Shown here piece after piece: positions 3,121 to 60,442 of a stretch of DNA of 64,000 nt (position 1 is the stretch's first letter; each line of letters starts with the position of its first letter). The DNA lies in assembly GCA_017656345.1 (NCBI GenBank), contig JACDNZ010000008.1, positions 1 through 64,000 of the forward strand, given 5' to 3'. Source of the stretch: Thermosipho sp. (in: thermotogales) (GTDB taxonomy: Bacteria > Thermotogota > Thermotogae > Thermotogales > Fervidobacteriaceae). A model generated the notes under the pieces. The model searched no databases and had not been told where the DNA came from. It was given only the letters and a program-made list of their open reading frames with translations. A program made the position numbers and the translations under genes.

Positions 3121-4776
3121 TTAAGACAGTCCTGATATATTACCATCCTCATCAATATCGATATTTACAGCATTTGGGATTTTTGAAAGCCCGGGCATTC
3201 TCATAATATCTCCAGCGAGAGCAACTACAAAGCCTGCTCCTGCAGAAAGTTCAAAATTTCTGATTGTAAATTCATATCCTGAGGGTGCATTTATCTTTTT
3301 AGGGTCATCTGAAATACTTGATTGAGTTTTTGCTACTATTACCGGGAGTGAATCATATCCGTGTTTTTTAAGAAATCTAAGTTTGCTTTTTGCACTATCT
3401 GTATAAATTATATTACCAGCACGATAAATTTCTTTTGCGAGAGTTTCGATTTTTTCTTCGAGTGTCATTTTTTCATTTAATAAAGGTTTGTATTGATTGT
3501 CGGTAATGTTTTCAAGTACAAGATTTGCAAGATCAATAGCGCCTTCTCCGCCTTTTTCGAATGCTCTAACAAATGCATGTGGCATTTCACAGTGTTTTGA
3601 AAATTCTTCAAGTTCTTTTTCGGTATCGGTATTAAACACATTTAATGCAACTACTACTGGAACATTATATTTTTTCATATTTTCAACGTGAACTCTAAGA
3701 TTTTCCATTCCTTTTATCATTGCTTCAACATTTTCTTTGTTTAGTTCGTCTTTTTTAACTCCTCCATGATATTTTAATGCTTTAATTGTAGCAACAATTA
3801 CTACTGCGTTGATATTATAACCTGCAGTTGGTGCAACAAAATCTAGAAATTTTTCTGCACCAAGGTCTGCAGCAAAACCAGCTTCAGTAACAACATAATC
3901 TGCAAGTTTTAGTGCAAGTTTTGTTGCGATAATACTATTTGTACCGTGTGCTATATTAGCAAATGGACCACCATGGATAAACGCTGGAGTATTTTCAATT
4001 GTCTGAACTAAATTTGGTTTTATGGCATCTTTTAGAAGTGTTGCCATGGCTCCTTCTATTTTTAAATCCTTTACCTTGATTAATTTTTTATCATATGATT
4101 GTGCAACAACTATGTTTGATATTCTTTCTTTTAAATCTTTAATATCTTTTGCAAGACAAAGAATTGCCATGATTTCTGAAGCGGCTGTAATTATGAACCC
4201 ATCTTCTCTGGGGTGTCCGTTTGCGGTTCCACCGAGTCCAACTACTATTTGTCTTAATGCTCTATCATTCATATCCATGGTTCTTTTCCAATAAACCTTT
4301 GTGGGATCAATTCCGAGTTCATTTCCAAATTTTATATGTGCGTCAATAACTGCAGATAAAAGATTATGTGCTGCAGAAATAGCATGTATATCACCTGTAA
4401 AATGAAGATTGATATTTTCCATTGGAAGAACCTGGGAATATCCTCCACCTGCTGCGCCACCCTTTATACCAAAAACTGGACCGAGTGATGGCTCTCTTAA
4501 GGTAACAATTGATTTTTTTCCAAGTTTATTTAATGCCATGGAAAGTCCAATACTTGTAGTAGTTTTTCCTTCACCAGCAGGTGTTGGGGTCATGGCTGTT
4601 ACAAGAATTAACTTTCCATCCTTTTTCTCCGATAAGGTCCTTAATATTTTAGTATCTACCTTTGCGATATACTTTCCATATGGTTCAAGAAAACTGTCTT
4701 CGATACCGATTTGACTGGCGATTTCAGTGATCGGTTTTAATTTAGCTTCCTTTGCAATCTCAATGTCACTTTTCAT
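3121..4776 (-). CDS. fhs: Formate-tetrahydrofolate ligase
   Basis: ATP-dependent synthesis of 10-formyltetrahydrofolate from formate and THF, feeding purine synthesis and formyl-methionyl-tRNA (fmt is at 59534). The 551-residue length is typical (about 555). The P-loop [15 protein letters not shown] is at about residues 62-76, and further family blocks ([30 protein letters not shown]) are intact. The ATG overlaps the stop of the upstream histidine kinase by ATGA and has an AAAGGGGG ribosome site, so the two are translationally coupled. A strong terminator follows the stop. Coupling to a sensor kinase and Hsp33 is unusual context for this metabolic gene. Confidence 0.97.
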
Positions 4777-6005
4777 TTTTGTGCCCCCTTTATGACGAAC
4801 TTTGTGTATCCACTCTCACTTTCAAGATTTATTTTTAAATTCATTTGCTCGCAAAGTTGTTTAACGAGGAACAGACCAAGTCCATGGCCTTTAGAACTTC
4901 TGGATTTAAAGAATCTTTCGAATATTTTTTCTTGTTCTTCTTTACTTATACCTGGTCCATGGTCTATAACCTCAATTTTATTTTCTGATAATATTACCTC
5001 GTATGGGGCTTTACCATGTAATATAGCATTTTCAAGAAGATTTGAAATAACTCTTTCTAATGCTTCTTCATTGGCGTTAATTGTGCCATTTCCAATTATT
5101 GAGATGTTTTGTCCATGTTGTTCTTCCTTTTGTTTTACAATTTTTTCTACAAGTGGTCTTAATTCAAGTTGTTTTGTATCAATTTGGTAATTTTTGGATA
5201 ATATAAGCATATTATCAATTAGTTCCTTCATTTTATTTGCTGTTTCTCTTATTGATTCAATTGATTCTTCAAGAATTGACTTATCTTTGTGTCCCCATCT
5301 TTTTAACATCTCCGAGTAACCTATTAAATTTGCAATAGGTGTTTTTAATTCATGGGATACATTGGATACGAATTCTTCTTGAAGTTTGTAATTTTTTTCT
5401 ACTCTATCCATAAGTTCATTAAATTTTTCAACTAATTCATCTATTTCATCATTGGTATTTGGTTTTATAAATCTAAATCCAAGGTCATTCCCTTTAATAT
5501 TTTCAAGTTCGTTCACAAAACTTTTCAAGTGTTTCATGGAATTTCTGGTGATAAAGTATGTTAGTAAGCTTGTCAAAATTAGTGAAATTATATACAAAAA
5601 AATAAACCGCTTTTTCAAATTATCAAGAAAAATAATGGTGGGTGTTATATCTTTACCGATAACTACATTATTATTTACTTTAAGGAAATAGTAAGTTCTT
5701 CCTTCTATCTTTTTAATTTCATTTTTTTCAACAAGAATATTTCCAAGTTCATATGGATCAAATAGTACGATACCATCGTATTTTAAATAAAAGTCCTTTT
5801 GTCTTTGTCCTGGCATACCTTTCATTAACATCATTTCTCTCATTAAGCCTTGAGAATTAAGAATTTTAATTGCTTCCAGAAGATCATCTCTAATGGAAGC
5901 AATGGCAATATTTCTTATTGAAAAGTAAAATGTAATTAGAACTATTGAAAGAACAAGAGCAACAATTAGAGTTGTAATATAAGTAATCTTTGAAGATAAA
6001 CTCAT
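4773..6005 (-). CDS. Membrane sensor histidine kinase (orphan)
   Basis: A 410-residue class I histidine kinase. It has an N-terminal membrane helix (about 6-29), an extracytoplasmic sensor segment of about 105 residues, a second helix (about 133-152), HAMP, a HisKA domain with the phospho-acceptor in NVSHELKTP (H218), and an ATPase domain with N box [11 protein letters not shown]1 DHGPGI and G2 GHGLGLFLV. The ATG at 6005 overlaps the hslO stop in TGATG and follows GGAGG by 7 nt; a GTG three bases earlier is less well spaced. No response regulator is encoded next to it or elsewhere in the window. The signal is unknown; operon mates suggest stress or one-carbon status. Confidence 0.93.
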
Positions 6006-6871
6006 CACTTGTCCTCCAATTTTTCCTTTTTAATTCTTTTTAATTCTTCGCTGGAAAAATAATATTTTGTACCACACCATTTGCATTCTACTTCTGCTTT
6101 TTCTTCATTTAATAAGTAATCAATATCTTCTTTTGTTAATACTTTTAGTGATTCATAAGCTTTTTCACGGGAACAATCGCATTTGAATTTTATCTCTTTT
6201 TCAAGTATTTCTTCAACTGCATTTCCAAATATGTGGTTAACTGCATCAAGTGGTTTATTTTTAGATAGAAAATCAGTAATTGGAGTTATTTCTTTAAACT
6301 TTTTTTCAAGCTCCGATATAATTTTCGGATCAAGTCCTTTGTCAAGAATTTGAATAATGATTCCGCCTGCTTTTTTAATTCCGTTCTTGTCAACTAACAC
6401 TCCTAAAGCAATAGCAGACGGAATCTGTTCGGAAACAGTGAAGTAATACGTAAGATCCTCCGCAATTTCTCCGCTTTGAAGAGGAATAGGAGTAACGTAT
6501 GGAGTTTTTAATCCAAGATCTCGAACTACTCTTAAAGTACCACCGCCAATTGCCCCTTTTAAATCAAATTTTCCTAGATTGTTTAATGGAAAATCTAGAA
6601 TTTTTGGTGTAACATAGCCTCTAACACTACCGTCAAATTTTGCTTGGGCTGCAATATGCTTTAAAGCTCCTTTACCTTCAATAATATAAGTTAACCTTTC
6701 CTTTTCTGAAAGCCATGGAGTCATCAAAGCTGCCCCTGTTAAGAGCCGTCCTAGAGCAACAGCCGGTAAAGGAGAAAGGTCATGTTTTTTTCTTGCTTCT
6801 TCAACTATTTCGGTACTATCAATTACAGAAAATCTTACAAGTGCATTATACGAAATTCCATGTTTTAACAT
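6005..6871 (-). CDS. hslO: Hsp33 redox-regulated chaperone
   Basis: A holdase chaperone switched on by oxidation and unfolding. The zinc/redox switch is complete: CDC at 231-233 and CKWC at 263-266. The 288-residue length is normal, and the GGG-rich central region (about 107-112) is the usual linker. The ATG at 6871 follows AAAGGTGG; an in-frame TTG at 6886 lies before that SD and is rejected. It lies 17 nt downstream of a 69-residue unknown gene and overlaps the kinase gene by one base, so it is the second gene of a four-gene operon. Leader structure at the operon head (7101-7160) may regulate it. Confidence 0.95.
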   Translation of the reverse strand: MLKHGISYNALVRFSVIDSTEIVEEARKKHDLSPLPAVALGRLLTGAALMTPWLSEKERLTYIIEGKGALKHIAAQAKFDGSVRGYVTPKILDFPLNNLGKFDLKGAIGGGTLRVVRDLGLKTPYVTPIPLQSGEIAEDLTYYFTVSEQIPSAIALGVLVDKNGIKKAGGIIIQILDKGLDPKIISELEKKFKEITPITDFLSKNKPLDAVNHIFGNAVEEILEKEIKFKCDCSREKAYESLKVLTKEDIDYLLNEEKAEVECKWCGTKYYFSSEELKRIKKEKLEDK

Positions 6872-6888
6872 ATTACCACCTTTCAATT

Positions 6889-7098
6889 TCAGTTTAGATA
6901 TTTGTTAGTAACGTTTTTAACCGCTTCAAAATTGTCGGAGAACATTACTTTTTTCACTTCAAAATCCACGAGTTTGTTTTTATAAATCGTTTCTAATATC
7001 TGGTCTACGTGTTTTTGCGATGGAACGTACAAAATTGGAAGTATATGATATTCTTTTTCACCTAAAAGTACGAGCCAGTAAACTGGAGTGTTCCTCAT
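6889..7098 (-). CDS. Uncharacterised 69-residue protein at head of Hsp33 operon
   Basis: I do not recognise this family. The protein is soluble, mixed alpha/beta, with a hydrophobic strand near the start (VYWLVLLGEK) and a Lys/Val-rich C-terminal half; it has no cysteine, no signal peptide and no membrane helix. The ATG at 7098 follows GGAGGTGG with a 4-nt gap; the frame stays open further upstream to 7215 but that part contains the SD and a probable -10 and is not expected to be coding. It is the first gene of the operon with hslO, 17 nt away. Its ribosome site can pair with an upstream repeat (see 7101-7160). Confidence 0.7.
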   Translation of the reverse strand: MRNTPVYWLVLLGEKEYHILPILYVPSQKHVDQILETIYKNKLVDFEVKKVMFSDNFEAVKNVTNKYLN

Positions 7099-7100
7099 GT

Positions 7101-7160
7101 TTCCACCTCCTGTGATTTTTTGTAGTTCTGTGAAACCGGAAAATGATAAAACAGGTGGAA
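7101..7160 (-). promoter_or_regulatory. Leader inverted repeat that could mask the ribosome site of the Hsp33 operon
   Basis: On the minus strand TTCCACCT (7160-7153) is perfectly complementary to AGGTGGAA (7108-7101). The latter is the core of the ribosome site of the first gene, four bases before its ATG. An 8-bp helix closing a loop of about 44 nt would hide the SD. The leader starts near 7200 if TATAAT at 7209-7204 is the -10. Regulation by temperature, a protein or nothing at all cannot be told apart here. Confidence 0.45.
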
Positions 7161-7350
7161 CTTGGAACACATGAAGAATAGCGGAGAAATGCGGATCAAT
7201 AATATTATACACCATTTTTTAGTTTGATTTAAGTTTTGAACTATAAATTAATCTGCAATCATTCCAATTTTCTTTTATTTTACTATTTTTACCTTAAATT
7301 TCCCTTAGAAATTCACTTAATAAATTTTCCTTTAAAAATTTTTCGTGTTG

Positions 7351-7403: not shown

Positions 7404-10331
7404 GTGAAATGGGAATTAAGACAAATTAATAAGGAGCTGGTAGAAAAGTTATCGAAGGAACTCGATATTCCTTTTCTTACTGCTCAACTTCTTATTAGTA
7501 GAGGTTATACAGATGTAGATAGTGCATATAAGTTCATTTACCCCAAAAGATCACACCTGCGCTCTCCATTCCTTTTAAAAGACATGGACAAAGCAGTTAA
7601 TTATCTTTTAATGGCAAGGGAAAAAGGTTACCCCATATTTGTTTATGGGGATTATGATGTTGATGGTATAACAGGAGCTGCAACCTTAGTAGGATTTTTA
7701 TCAAAATATGGGTGGAAAGTTGACTATTACATACCTAATAGGCTTGATGAGGGTTATGGAATTCAGCCTAATATTATTGAGGAATATTATAAAAAAGGTT
7801 TCCGTGTTTTGTTGAGTGTTGACTGTGGAATTACCAGTTTTGAAGCGGTTGAGAAAGCAAAAGAACTGGGAATGTATACAATAATAACAGACCATCATAC
7901 GGTTAAAGATAAGATTCCCAATGCACATGCAGTTGTTGATCCAAAAAGGGATGATGAAACATATCCATTTAAAGATTTTGCAGGAGTGGGTGTTGCTTAT
8001 AAGTTAATAAGTGCTCTTGCCGAAAAATTAAATATTCCTGATGAAGAAATTGATTCATTTTTAGATATTGTTGCGCTTGGAACTATTGCTGACATGGTTG
8101 ATCTGGTTGATGAAAATAGATATATCGTAAAAGAAGGCTTAAAGAGATTAAATAATACAAAAAGAGTAGGTTTAGTTCAATTGTTGAAAAAACTTAATAT
8201 TACAAACATTTCCAGTCAAGATATAGGATATAGAGTTGCACCAAAACTCAATGCTGCAGGAAGACTTTATTCAGCTGAGGATGCGTTTAAACTTATCATG
8301 ACAGAAAGTATTTCATCTGCCGAGCAACTTGCGGAAATACTGATGGGTTATAACTTTACCAGGCAAGAAATTGAAACAAAAATTTTTGAGGAAGCTGTGG
8401 AGAAAATAGAAAACTCAAAGTTGAAAGATTTGCCACTTCTTGTTGTTTATAGCGAAAATTGGCATGCAGGTGTCTTGGGTATAGTTGCAACAAAGCTTGT
8501 TCAAAAGTATAACAAACCTTCTTTAGTTATAACAATAGAAGACGGTATAGGGAGAGGTTCGGGAAGAAGTGTTGATGGAGTTAACATTTTAGAAGTATTA
8601 AGTGATTTTTCTGAGTATTTTGAAGAGTTTGGCGGACATCCTATGGCTGTTGGCTTTAGTATAGCTGAGGAAAAAATAGAAGAATTTATAGAATCAATTT
8701 CCGAGAAATTTGGAGAAACTTTCTTCAAGTCAGATTCGAAGATAGAAATTGATGCAGCCTTGAGTATCGATGAAATTGATAATAACATAATTAAAGCTTT
8801 AAGTTATCTAGAACCATATGGACATGGAAATCCGGAACCAGTTTTTGTCATTAAAAATTCTGTGGTTGATAGAATAAGATTTTTCGGGAATGGTGGTTCA
8901 AATGTAAGAATGAGTCTAAGGGGAAAAAATACAGTTATTGAGGGAATAGGATTTGGTTTGAAGAAAAGTTATAACGAGGTTCCAGCAATTCAAGCATTTT
9001 TGACGTCACTGGATGTGGTTGCAAATATCAGACAAAACGGTGTTGGGCCAGTATTGAATGTTTTAGATTTTAAAGTATCTTCTACATCTGATGAAGAATA
9101 TAAAGATAAATACTTTATATATTCGTTTACGAATGACTGGAAGAATCAGAATTCTGATGATTTTGAACATTATGCAACAACCGATGAACTTGTACAAAGA
9201 TATGAAAAGGTTGAAAAGTATTTAAATGTAAAGAAACCTTTTGTATTACAGTCTGATCCTTTAACTAGAAATGCTTTTTTAATGCTTTTGATGCAAAAAG
9301 GTCGAACACTAGTTATAAATTCAACAAATATTGATGCACTTCATGTTTATGAAAGTTTATCCAGACATTCACCAAAGGATTTGTCATTCGTAAATTCAAT
9401 GAGTAGAAAATATTCCCGAAATGTTGTAACAAACGCAATAATGGTAATTGAAAATGAAGTGGATCTGGACGATTTTGATTTTATAGTATTAAATGAGATT
9501 CAGTTTTTGTCTTCACTTTCTTATGAAACATATACGAAACTTCTTTCAAAAATTGGAAAACGGGAAGTGATAATTACATCCCTTTACAAATTTGAAACTA
9601 ATCTTCCCGTATATGTTGAGGAAAGGAAGTTTAATTTTGGACTTGAGGATAGAAGGGAAGACGAAAAGACTGTAAAACATGATTCTGAATCTATAGCATT
9701 TCTATTTTCAAATTATTCATATGTGACCAAATTTTATGAAAAACTTATAAAAAACGGATATTATTACAAAGATTTAGTTTTCTATAGTCCTGTTTTAGAA
9801 CCCTTCCAGAAAAAAGCGATTAGTACCCTTGTTAAGAAGAAGAGAATAAAGAAAATAGTCAGTTCTACAAATTCTGATGGATTACCTTCGATGCTGCAAA
9901 ACGGTGCAGAAATTAGATTATATGATTTTCCGCTAACCGTTAAAGAGTTAATTGACGCTGTTTCAGGTGATTCATATTCAATATTACAGCTATTTTATAA
10001 TAAGAAAGATGCATTTCAGAGATTGAAACATCTTAGAAATATTTTCCCGGATAGTGATAAAGTAAATGAAATTATTAATTTGATTAGTGATAATGAACTT
10101 AGCGATGAGTTTATAAAAATTCTTTCAAAAGAAAAAGGAATACCTTTGAAAGTTTTAAAATCGATAATTAAAGATTATAGAGCTGGTAAAACTATTTTGA
10201 GGTTAGAGGAAAGAAAGATAGAGCTTCCATATTTTGAGAAGTATACTTTAATGTTGTTGAATGCGCCGATTAAAGATATTTATAAAATGATTGAAGAAAG
10301 AAATATGTACGATGTATTTTTACAATTGTAG
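7404..10331 (+). CDS. recJ: RecJ single-strand 5'-3' exonuclease with long C-terminal domain
   Basis: DHH-family 5'-3' ssDNA exonuclease for recombination and mismatch repair. The metal-binding motifs are intact: DYDVDG 83-88, SVDCG 138-142, DHH 163-165, DIVALGTIADMV 221-232. The DHHA1 part carries GRGSGR (383-388) and GGHPMAVGFS (410-419), followed by an OB-like region to about residue 560. At 975 residues it is far longer than E. coli RecJ (about 577). The extra 400 residues look like a helicase-type RecA fold that has lost its catalytic motifs (LQSDPLTRNA about 615-624, LNEIQ 696-700). GTG start, after AAGGAG. The next gene, a RuvX-like nuclease, starts 8 nt downstream. Confidence 0.95.
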   Translation: MKWELRQINKELVEKLSKELDIPFLTAQLLISRGYTDVDSAYKFIYPKRSHLRSPFLLKDMDKAVNYLLMAREKGYPIFVYGDYDVDGITGAATLVGFLSKYGWKVDYYIPNRLDEGYGIQPNIIEEYYKKGFRVLLSVDCGITSFEAVEKAKELGMYTIITDHHTVKDKIPNAHAVVDPKRDDETYPFKDFAGVGVAYKLISALAEKLNIPDEEIDSFLDIVALGTIADMVDLVDENRYIVKEGLKRLNNTKRVGLVQLLKKLNITNISSQDIGYRVAPKLNAAGRLYSAEDAFKLIMTESISSAEQLAEILMGYNFTRQEIETKIFEEAVEKIENSKLKDLPLLVVYSENWHAGVLGIVATKLVQKYNKPSLVITIEDGIGRGSGRSVDGVNILEVLSDFSEYFEEFGGHPMAVGFSIAEEKIEEFIESISEKFGETFFKSDSKIEIDAALSIDEIDNNIIKALSYLEPYGHGNPEPVFVIKNSVVDRIRFFGNGGSNVRMSLRGKNTVIEGIGFGLKKSYNEVPAIQAFLTSLDVVANIRQNGVGPVLNVLDFKVSSTSDEEYKDKYFIYSFTNDWKNQNSDDFEHYATTDELVQRYEKVEKYLNVKKPFVLQSDPLTRNAFLMLLMQKGRTLVINSTNIDALHVYESLSRHSPKDLSFVNSMSRKYSRNVVTNAIMVIENEVDLDDFDFIVLNEIQFLSSLSYETYTKLLSKIGKREVIITSLYKFETNLPVYVEERKFNFGLEDRREDEKTVKHDSESIAFLFSNYSYVTKFYEKLIKNGYYYKDLVFYSPVLEPFQKKAISTLVKKKRIKKIVSSTNSDGLPSMLQNGAEIRLYDFPLTVKELIDAVSGDSYSILQLFYNKKDAFQRLKHLRNIFPDSDKVNEIINLISDNELSDEFIKILSKEKGIPLKVLKSIIKDYRAGKTILRLEERKIELPYFEKYTLMLLNAPIKDIYKMIEERNMYDVFLQL

Positions 10332-59533: not shown

Positions 59534-60442
59534 ATGAGAATTCTTTACATGGGAACTCCAGATTTTGCAAAAGAGCATCTCGAGCATTTAATTAAAAATA
59601 AGTTTAATATTGTTGCAGTTGTTTCGCAACAGGATAAACCAAGAGGAAGAGGAAAAAAAATCTTACCAACACCGGTAAAAGAAGTTGCATTAAAATATGG
59701 TATACCTATACTTCAACCGAAATCCTTAAATAAGGAAGGTTTAAAGATCATAGAAGAATTTAGACCTGATATTGGAATTGTTGTAGCGTATGGTAAACTT
59801 TTGAAACCACCATTTCTGGATACTATTCCATTTTTTAATGTCCATGCTTCATTATTACCAAAATATAGAGGTGCAGCACCTATTCAGAGAACTTTGGAAA
59901 ATGGTGAAACAAAAACTGGAATTACAATTTTTAAAATTGGAATAGGAATGGATGATGGGCCAATTGCACTTCAGAAAGAAGTAAATATTGATGAATTTGA
60001 GACTTTTGGGAGTTTATATGAGAAACTTCTAAAACTTGGGAAAAATATGTTAGTTGAATTTTTAAATAACTATCCTTTAGAACTTAATCCACAACAAGGT
60101 GAACCTTCTTATGCTCCAAAGATAACAAAGGAAGATCTACAACTGAGTTTCTCAAAAAAATGTGTGGAAGTAAAAGATAAAATCAGAGCGTATGATCCAC
60201 TACCGGGTGTAAGAACAAATTTAAATGGTAAGAATGTGAAACTCTTTGGAGTGTTTTATTATGAAAAGAAGGCAGTACAAAGTGAAGGAACGATATTGGA
60301 AATCAATGATAAAGGTGCAATTATTTCATGTTTGGATGGGGTTGTTGGTGTAAAATATATCCAGTTTCCCGGAAAAACCAGGATCACCTTTTTAGAAGCA
60401 AAAAATGGAAAACTTTTAAGAGAAGGTGATGTGTTTGCGTAA
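59534..60442 (+). CDS. fmt: Methionyl-tRNA formyltransferase
   Basis: Uses 10-formyl-THF to formylate initiator Met-tRNA. The 302-residue protein has MGTPDFA, QQDKPRGRGKK (folate loop), HASLLPKYRGAAPIQ with the catalytic His/Asn region, and GMDDGPI. ATG at 59534 follows AGAGGTGGAG; upstream in-frame codons reach 59477 but overlap rsmA. It overlaps trmFO. Confidence 0.96.
   Translation: MRILYMGTPDFAKEHLEHLIKNKFNIVAVVSQQDKPRGRGKKILPTPVKEVALKYGIPILQPKSLNKEGLKIIEEFRPDIGIVVAYGKLLKPPFLDTIPFFNVHASLLPKYRGAAPIQRTLENGETKTGITIFKIGIGMDDGPIALQKEVNIDEFETFGSLYEKLLKLGKNMLVEFLNNYPLELNPQQGEPSYAPKITKEDLQLSFSKKCVEVKDKIRAYDPLPGVRTNLNGKNVKLFGVFYYEKKAVQSEGTILEINDKGAIISCLDGVVGVKYIQFPGKTRITFLEAKNGKLLREGDVFA

Follow-up and report, generated by a model that had tools for sequence, protein, structure and literature searches.

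Gene content of the locus

The window, by which we mean the whole 64,000-nucleotide stretch of DNA analyzed, carries on its minus strand an operon headed by an open reading frame (ORF; 6889 to 7098) for a 69-amino-acid (69-aa) protein with a predicted beta-beta-alpha-beta-alpha fold. The hsp33 gene (6005 to 6871; PF01430, E 1e-76, translated from 6868) follows 17 nt after this gene, and a sensor histidine kinase gene (4773 to 6008; PF02518 and PF00512; start taken from a mechanical ORF list) and the formate-tetrahydrofolate ligase gene fhs (3121 to 4776; PF01268, E 1.3e-256) then follow, with 4-nt overlaps according to the same list. On the plus strand, a divergent recJ-like gene (7404 to 10331; PF01368, PF17768, and PF02272) shares the intergenic region with the operon and lies outside the element described below.

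The 69-aa protein has no Pfam match, scanned as a longer open frame containing it, and none to the ribosomal protein families of Pfam and NCBIfam. Its best NCBIfam hit has an E value of 0.024 and 13.1 bits against a cutoff of 371, and its best matches in the PDB reach E 0.94 by sequence and E 0.48 by fold. The AlphaFold model, built from single-sequence input, has a mean pLDDT of 86.4, and by residue count the protein is near neutral in charge.

A protein search with this product in 61 genomes returned ten matches, of which nine were kept; the tenth (G034; E 9e-4, 34% identity, within a 310-aa frame) was dropped as unrelated. The nine carriers come from one family and represent three of its genera: g1, the genus of the window's own genome G000, with G001 to G003; g5, with G007, G010, G012, and G014; and g4, with G006. 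Searches for further carriers found none new among named genomes and none in viral contigs. The 69-aa gene adjoins hsp33 in all nine, and the order 69aa-hsp33-kinase-fhs of the window is identical in the other eight. The divergent recJ stands beside the operon in 8/9, whereas in G006 none was detected within some 1.5 kb.

Two predicted nested stems over the first start site

An earlier note on this DNA had described two perfectly complementary leader segments, about 44 nt apart, covering the Shine-Dalgarno sequence (SD) of the first gene, and both segments read on the minus strand as it claimed: TTCCACCT (7160 to 7153) is complementary to AGGTGGAA (7108 to 7101) across a spacing of 44 nt, and AGGTGGAA overlaps the SD AGGAGGTG (7111 to 7104), behind which the ATG of the 69-aa gene lies at 7098 to 7096. 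We call this inner helix P2. Its 5' arm, TTCCACC(T) (7153 to 7160), contains a TTCCACC that is invariant in the nine genomes, and its 3' arm, AGGTGGAA (7101 to 7108), takes in the 3' half of the SD (7104 to 7111). The SD itself was placed by its duplex with the presumed 16S rRNA 3' end.

A second pairing, absent from the earlier note, is nested with the first. In this outer helix, P1, the 5' arm GTGTTCC (7170 to 7164) pairs with GGAACAC (7094 to 7088), which is codons 2 to 4 of the 69-aa gene, and by sequence and predicted fold the ATG (7096 to 7098) falls in an internal loop that separates P1 from P2. The loop closed by P2 (7109 to 7152) varies in both length and sequence in an alignment of the nine leaders. 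Just 5' of the SD, at 7116 to 7121 of the minus strand in the window, this loop holds a run of at least five A's, found in 9/9 leaders, that may serve as a ribosome docking site.

Conservation among relatives

The P2 segments TTCCACC and GGAGGTGGAA are both kept in every genome that has the 69-aa gene, including G006 with its missing recJ neighbor, so that the conservation among relatives on which the earlier note had made its idea depend is found, for the pairing segments, throughout the carriers. GTGTTCC of P1 is exact in seven of the nine and reads GTGTCCC in G007 and ATTTTCC in G006. Between genera, identity is 315/336 (0.938) in the 5' arms versus 530/1007 (0.526) in the loop, in an alignment made by sequence in which the loop is gappy. 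Across the nine leaders, 127 of 135 cells are paired (94.1%), compared with 33 to 61% when the partner is slid by 1 to 3 columns, a control that is itself biased toward the true structure.

The compensatory changes for which the earlier note had suggested looking did not emerge: covariation across the nine leaders is not significant, with one double change (in G006) among the 135 cells, a count that 58 of 500 shuffles also attain. None of the seven core P2 pairs differs in any of the nine genomes, not even as a G-U variant, and since they never vary they neither prove nor refute the pairing. Such invariance is tighter than pairing alone requires and speaks for an operator for a trans-acting factor. 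The factor, which might be a small RNA or else a protein, for instance some other stress protein or the product of the 69-aa gene, would bind the hairpin or one arm and thereby open or close the start site, as happens in autogenous leaders, and recognition as well as pairing would keep the sequence fixed. Against this, it may stem from the small number of related genomes and from the fixed SD on the 3' side. Judged, like heat and all the alternatives below, on the premise that the element is functional, we hold the operator to be possible, if somewhat against the odds.

Codon choice within the P1 arm is also skewed. Arginine at codon 2 is AGG in 7/7 cases, compared with 19/140 in nine window genes, and asparagine at codon 3 is AAC in 9/9, compared with 30/210, while the third base of codon 4, just beyond the stem, reads T, A, A, A, C, C, G, and C in eight threonine codons; the nine genomes are related and hence not independent for these counts. 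G014 has glycine GGG in place of arginine at codon 2 and still keeps the GG, and G006 has AAA there, with P1 largely lost. In the remainder of the 69-aa gene over the nine genomes, AAC makes up 19/44 and AGG 5/6, so the codon bias in the P1 arm is partly the gene's own.

Confinement to one gene

The window's genome has a single copy of the pattern TTCCACC-N15..45-GGAGGTGGAA. Among 45 genomes it is found at ten places in eight genomes, compared with one place for the reversed control. Matches to the same two segments in G017 (three; L012, L019, and L020) and G005 (one; L011) are near-identical copies, probably of a mobile or repeated element, and another pattern match falls in G042. As a separate observation, the locus L077 (G000:C23:23700-24284) lies at a contig end with open frames that by eye are unlike the AT-rich rest of the genome, and it may be an assembly contaminant.

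A covariance model of the nine leaders, searched with stricter filters in 103 genomes of the phylum, gives nine strong matches (E 3.5e-23 to 1.9e-11), all at the 69-aa gene and one per genome; these are the very sequences from which the model was built, and the next best match has an E value of 0.006. A match with an E value no higher than 1 is found in 34/103 genomes altogether, and besides the nine there are 45 weak places (E 0.006 to 0.97). Seven of these 45 were inspected as possible other copies of the element and rejected, none having TTCCACC inside and the match being mainly to an SD plus start codon. The best of the weak matches, at L078 (G017:C1:988607-988710, minus strand), has a leader GTGTT complementary to AACAC in codons 3 and 4 of the gene that follows, which is a different, unrelated-looking gene with membrane-anchor-like features.

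In the 11 genomes of g2 and g3, the protein search found the 69-aa gene in none and hsp33 in ten, and the model had no strong match; by eye, too, no 69-aa gene stands upstream of hsp33 in g2 and g3. The regions upstream of hsp33 were viewed in 16 genomes (one of the nine carriers and 15 others), with two loci (L029 and L041) wrongly bounded; hsp33 itself was found in 30/45 genomes of the order. The confinement of strong matches to the 69-aa gene is a further point for an operator. As the partner of such an operator, however, the 69-aa protein is a candidate only, since it is near neutral and the searches described above gave it no relative by sequence or by fold.

Promoter and upstream reading frames

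A predicted -10 box, TATAAT (7204 to 7209, minus strand), is present in 9/9 relatives and would place the transcription start near 7198 to 7196. A consensus promoter scan does not list this box and gives 7267 to 7240 instead; either candidate promoter would start transcription before the 5' arm is reached. A start inside the repeat, which the earlier note had named as an outcome that would overturn its idea, is unlikely, since the predicted -10 box lies upstream of the 5' arm in all nine genomes. Across the nine leaders, TTCCACC follows the -10 box at a distance of 23 to 70 nt, and the SD follows the predicted start at a distance of 63 to 140 nt.

These distances bear on the possibility that the hairpin is a 5' end stabilizer, which would keep the long mRNA of a thermophile from being degraded, with masking of the SD incidental. 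The outer arm would begin about 7 nt (G010) and about 15 nt (G014) after the predicted start, as a stabilizer might, but about 27 to 54 nt after it in the other seven genomes, and the stem sits exactly on the SD and codons 2 to 4; we find this reading highly improbable.

The least probable of the readings weighed is that the arms act at another level, either as half-sites for a transcription factor in the DNA or as part of an upstream coding frame. It draws on the first-gene frame being open upstream in six genomes, the four of g1 plus G007 and G012 (open frames of 103 to 114 aa), and on a 25-codon upstream ORF in G000 (7172 to 7096 of the window, minus strand), which starts ATGTGT and whose TGA overlaps, as ATGA, the ATG of the 69-aa gene. 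An upstream coding extension of the first gene was nevertheless rejected, because in G001 and G002 the open frame lacks any ATG, GTG, or TTG and in others the frame is closed, and the 25-codon ORF was rejected as a conserved feature because upstream ORFs are not kept in relatives. An extra base between the arms in G001, G002, G003, and G006 would shift any frame. For DNA half-sites, nested complementarity to an SD plus codons would be unexpected, and the spacing to the -10 box is variable.

Predicted closure of the start region

Folded alone, the 91-nt hairpin (7085 to 7175, minus strand) has a predicted energy of -24.7 kcal/mol and a z score of -2.69, with 4 of 200 shuffles equally stable; with more flank (7070 to 7240), the z score is -1.24 and 21 of 200 shuffles are equally stable. 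The openness of the start region (SD to +9) was modeled for 61 window genes, selected with a simple SD criterion, at seven temperatures between 40 and 85°C. The start region of the 69-aa gene is the least open at every one of them, and at 70°C its SD is the costliest of the 61 to open. At 37°C, the opening cost of a gene at 60435 equals or exceeds that of the 69-aa gene (9.40 against 7.19 or 9.44 kcal/mol, depending on the choice of six SD bases).

The gene at 60435 is GidA/TrmFO-like, its start taken by rule as the TTG at that position. Within 60382 to 60435 of the plus strand, its SD, AGGTGA, pairs with GATCACCTT, a segment of the formyltransferase gene that precedes it, and its start is among the four least open of the 61 at 40 to 80°C. 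The fold of its region is matched by 59/200 shuffles and so is overall no better than shuffles.

When the leader only is shuffled, the number of shuffles out of 200 that cost at least as much to open at 70°C as the real leader is 3 in G000, 1 in G001, 8 in G003, and 6 in G002; 1 each in G014 and G010; 26 in G007 and 39 in G012; and 161 in G006. Modeled closure beyond that of shuffled leaders is thus clear in six genomes, weak in two (G007 and G012), and absent in G006. The last is predicted to be unmasked, with a P2 middle-pair probability of 0.05 to 0.18 and a net energy that is negative up to 80°C. In the model, the SD and/or start codon of G000 is paired at low temperature, and P2 is paired at 50 to 70°C in 8/9 genomes, G006 excepted.

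The start region of hsp33, by comparison, is more open than the median of the 61 genes at all seven temperatures. The proposal of the earlier note that a masked ribosome site heads the hsp33 operon is therefore supported for the SD of the first gene and not for hsp33 itself, since the masked gene is the 69-aa ORF. With the start of hsp33 open, any effect on Hsp33 would need translational coupling or mRNA decay.

The same figures would suit a fixed brake, by which the hairpin sets a low, constant translation of the 69-aa protein relative to Hsp33 with no response to any signal: the first start is modeled as the least open at every temperature, and hsp33 has a separate, more open site. In our judgment a weak SD would be the simpler means to that end, whereas here the SD retains all 8 nt and is covered by a perfect stem, and we consider a fixed brake unlikely.

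Modeled temperature response

Heat was modeled with standard parameters, far from 37°C, and the figures are rough: the probability that the SD core GGAGGTG is free is below 0.0005 at 60°C in all genomes except G006 (0.0043) and rises at 80°C to 0.0007 to 0.0168, with 0.051 in G006. From 50 to 80°C, the gain in openness in G000 is the largest relative gain among the 61 window genes. Pairing between SD and anti-SD also weakens with heat. With opening and SD:anti-SD pairing taken together, the modeled 50 to 80°C gain is 62-fold in G000, 323-fold in G001, 546-fold in G003, and 85-fold in G002, compared with 15.7-fold in G007, 4.6-fold in G012, 4.1-fold in G014, and 1.8-fold in G010; in G006 the response is reversed, with a change of about 0.01-fold. 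The modeled heat response is thus marked in the window's genus and small in the sister genus, and the gains of just 1.8- to 4.6-fold in G010, G014, and G012 would be in keeping with a fixed brake. The middle pair of P2 in the eight genomes other than G006 keeps a probability of 0.73 to 0.97 at 80°C and of 0.49 to 0.88 at 85°C.

The suggestion of the earlier note that the leader might be a thermosensor accordingly keeps only the rank of a candidate: the core helix is perfectly Watson-Crick, P2 is mostly paired at 80°C, and the modeled gain is widely different among genomes and reversed in G006. A modeled lid too stable for free melting at about 70°C would fit an operator opened by a factor. We conclude that the data suit a thermosensor, a fixed brake, and an operator bound by a factor about equally.

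Discussion

We consider it fairly likely, at a probability of roughly 0.7, that the leader hairpin is a selected translational lid on the first gene, since a fold kept in most relatives probably controls translation. In the leader of the 69aa-hsp33-kinase-fhs mRNA, two nested stems would form a hairpin covering the site at which translation of the first gene begins, with P2 occupying the 3' half of the SD, the AUG in the internal loop, and P1 occupying codons 2 to 4. With the lid shut, all that the 30S subunit could contact would be the A-rich loop and, next to it, the unpaired 5' half of the SD, and the first gene would therefore be poorly translated. Heat is the slightly favored input, a tentative choice that we put below even odds: P1 would fray first and P2 would loosen next, near the upper end of the growth range, allowing more translation of the first gene. 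An effect on hsp33 would be indirect, through coupling or mRNA stability. The most specific version of this reading is a private RNA switch of the Thermosipho type that gates a 69-aa Hsp33 partner, a thermometer tuned to about 75 to 85°C in which P1 frays and then P2; we regard it as rather doubtful, because its odds are the product of those for a lid and those for heat.

Known RNA thermometers of heat-shock genes (ROSE, fourU, and Synechocystis hsp17) likewise use a 5' leader structure to hide the SD at the head of a stress operon. Unlike them, the element described here has a perfect Watson-Crick core, a near-invariant sequence, a 44-nt loop, and a P2 that is predicted to be mostly paired at 80°C. 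RNA thermometers are described as little conserved in sequence, and ROSE elements as containing noncanonical pairs (PMC4166951), so the strong sequence conservation found here is a point against, or at least a difference from, the usual thermometer. Thermometers of short single- and two-hairpin type are also described (PMC3669281). FourU elements are defined by four consecutive U's paired with the AGGA of the SD (PMC4166951); here the arm UUCCACC pairs with GGUGGAA, and no run of four U's lies opposite AGGA.

At gathering scores, Rfam finds only a tRNA in the window, with neither ROSE nor any other family, and on positions 7060 to 7260 its eight matches, with a lowest E value of 0.62, are all below the cutoffs. 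A conserved separate aptamer, as expected of a metabolite riboswitch, is not seen among the nine leaders, in which the loop and the upstream part vary. Autogenous translational operators, such as those of ribosomal-protein leaders, are known. The element resembles them as a sequence-constrained hairpin before one gene and differs in that it matches no Rfam family and its first gene no ribosomal-protein family.

For a thermophile, translational control by a leader has a precedent in the hspA leader of Thermosynechococcus elongatus (optimum, 57°C), which is named in PMC4166951. The two share a translational leader structure in a thermophile and differ in that hspA is a cyanobacterial small heat-shock gene. 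A literature search of open-licence papers, judged from their listings, found nothing on an hsp33 leader or on RNA thermometers of Thermosipho. Within the phylum, leaders in Thermotoga maritima are described as short (11 to 17 and 26 to 32 nt), which limits regulation (PMC3636130); a conserved leader of 63 to 140 nt that buries a start site is therefore unusual. If heat opens the lid, the element would serve as an RNA thermometer in organisms living near 80°C, and if a protein works it, the lid would provide a handle on an uncharacterized gene that adjoins hsp33 in every one of its nine carriers.
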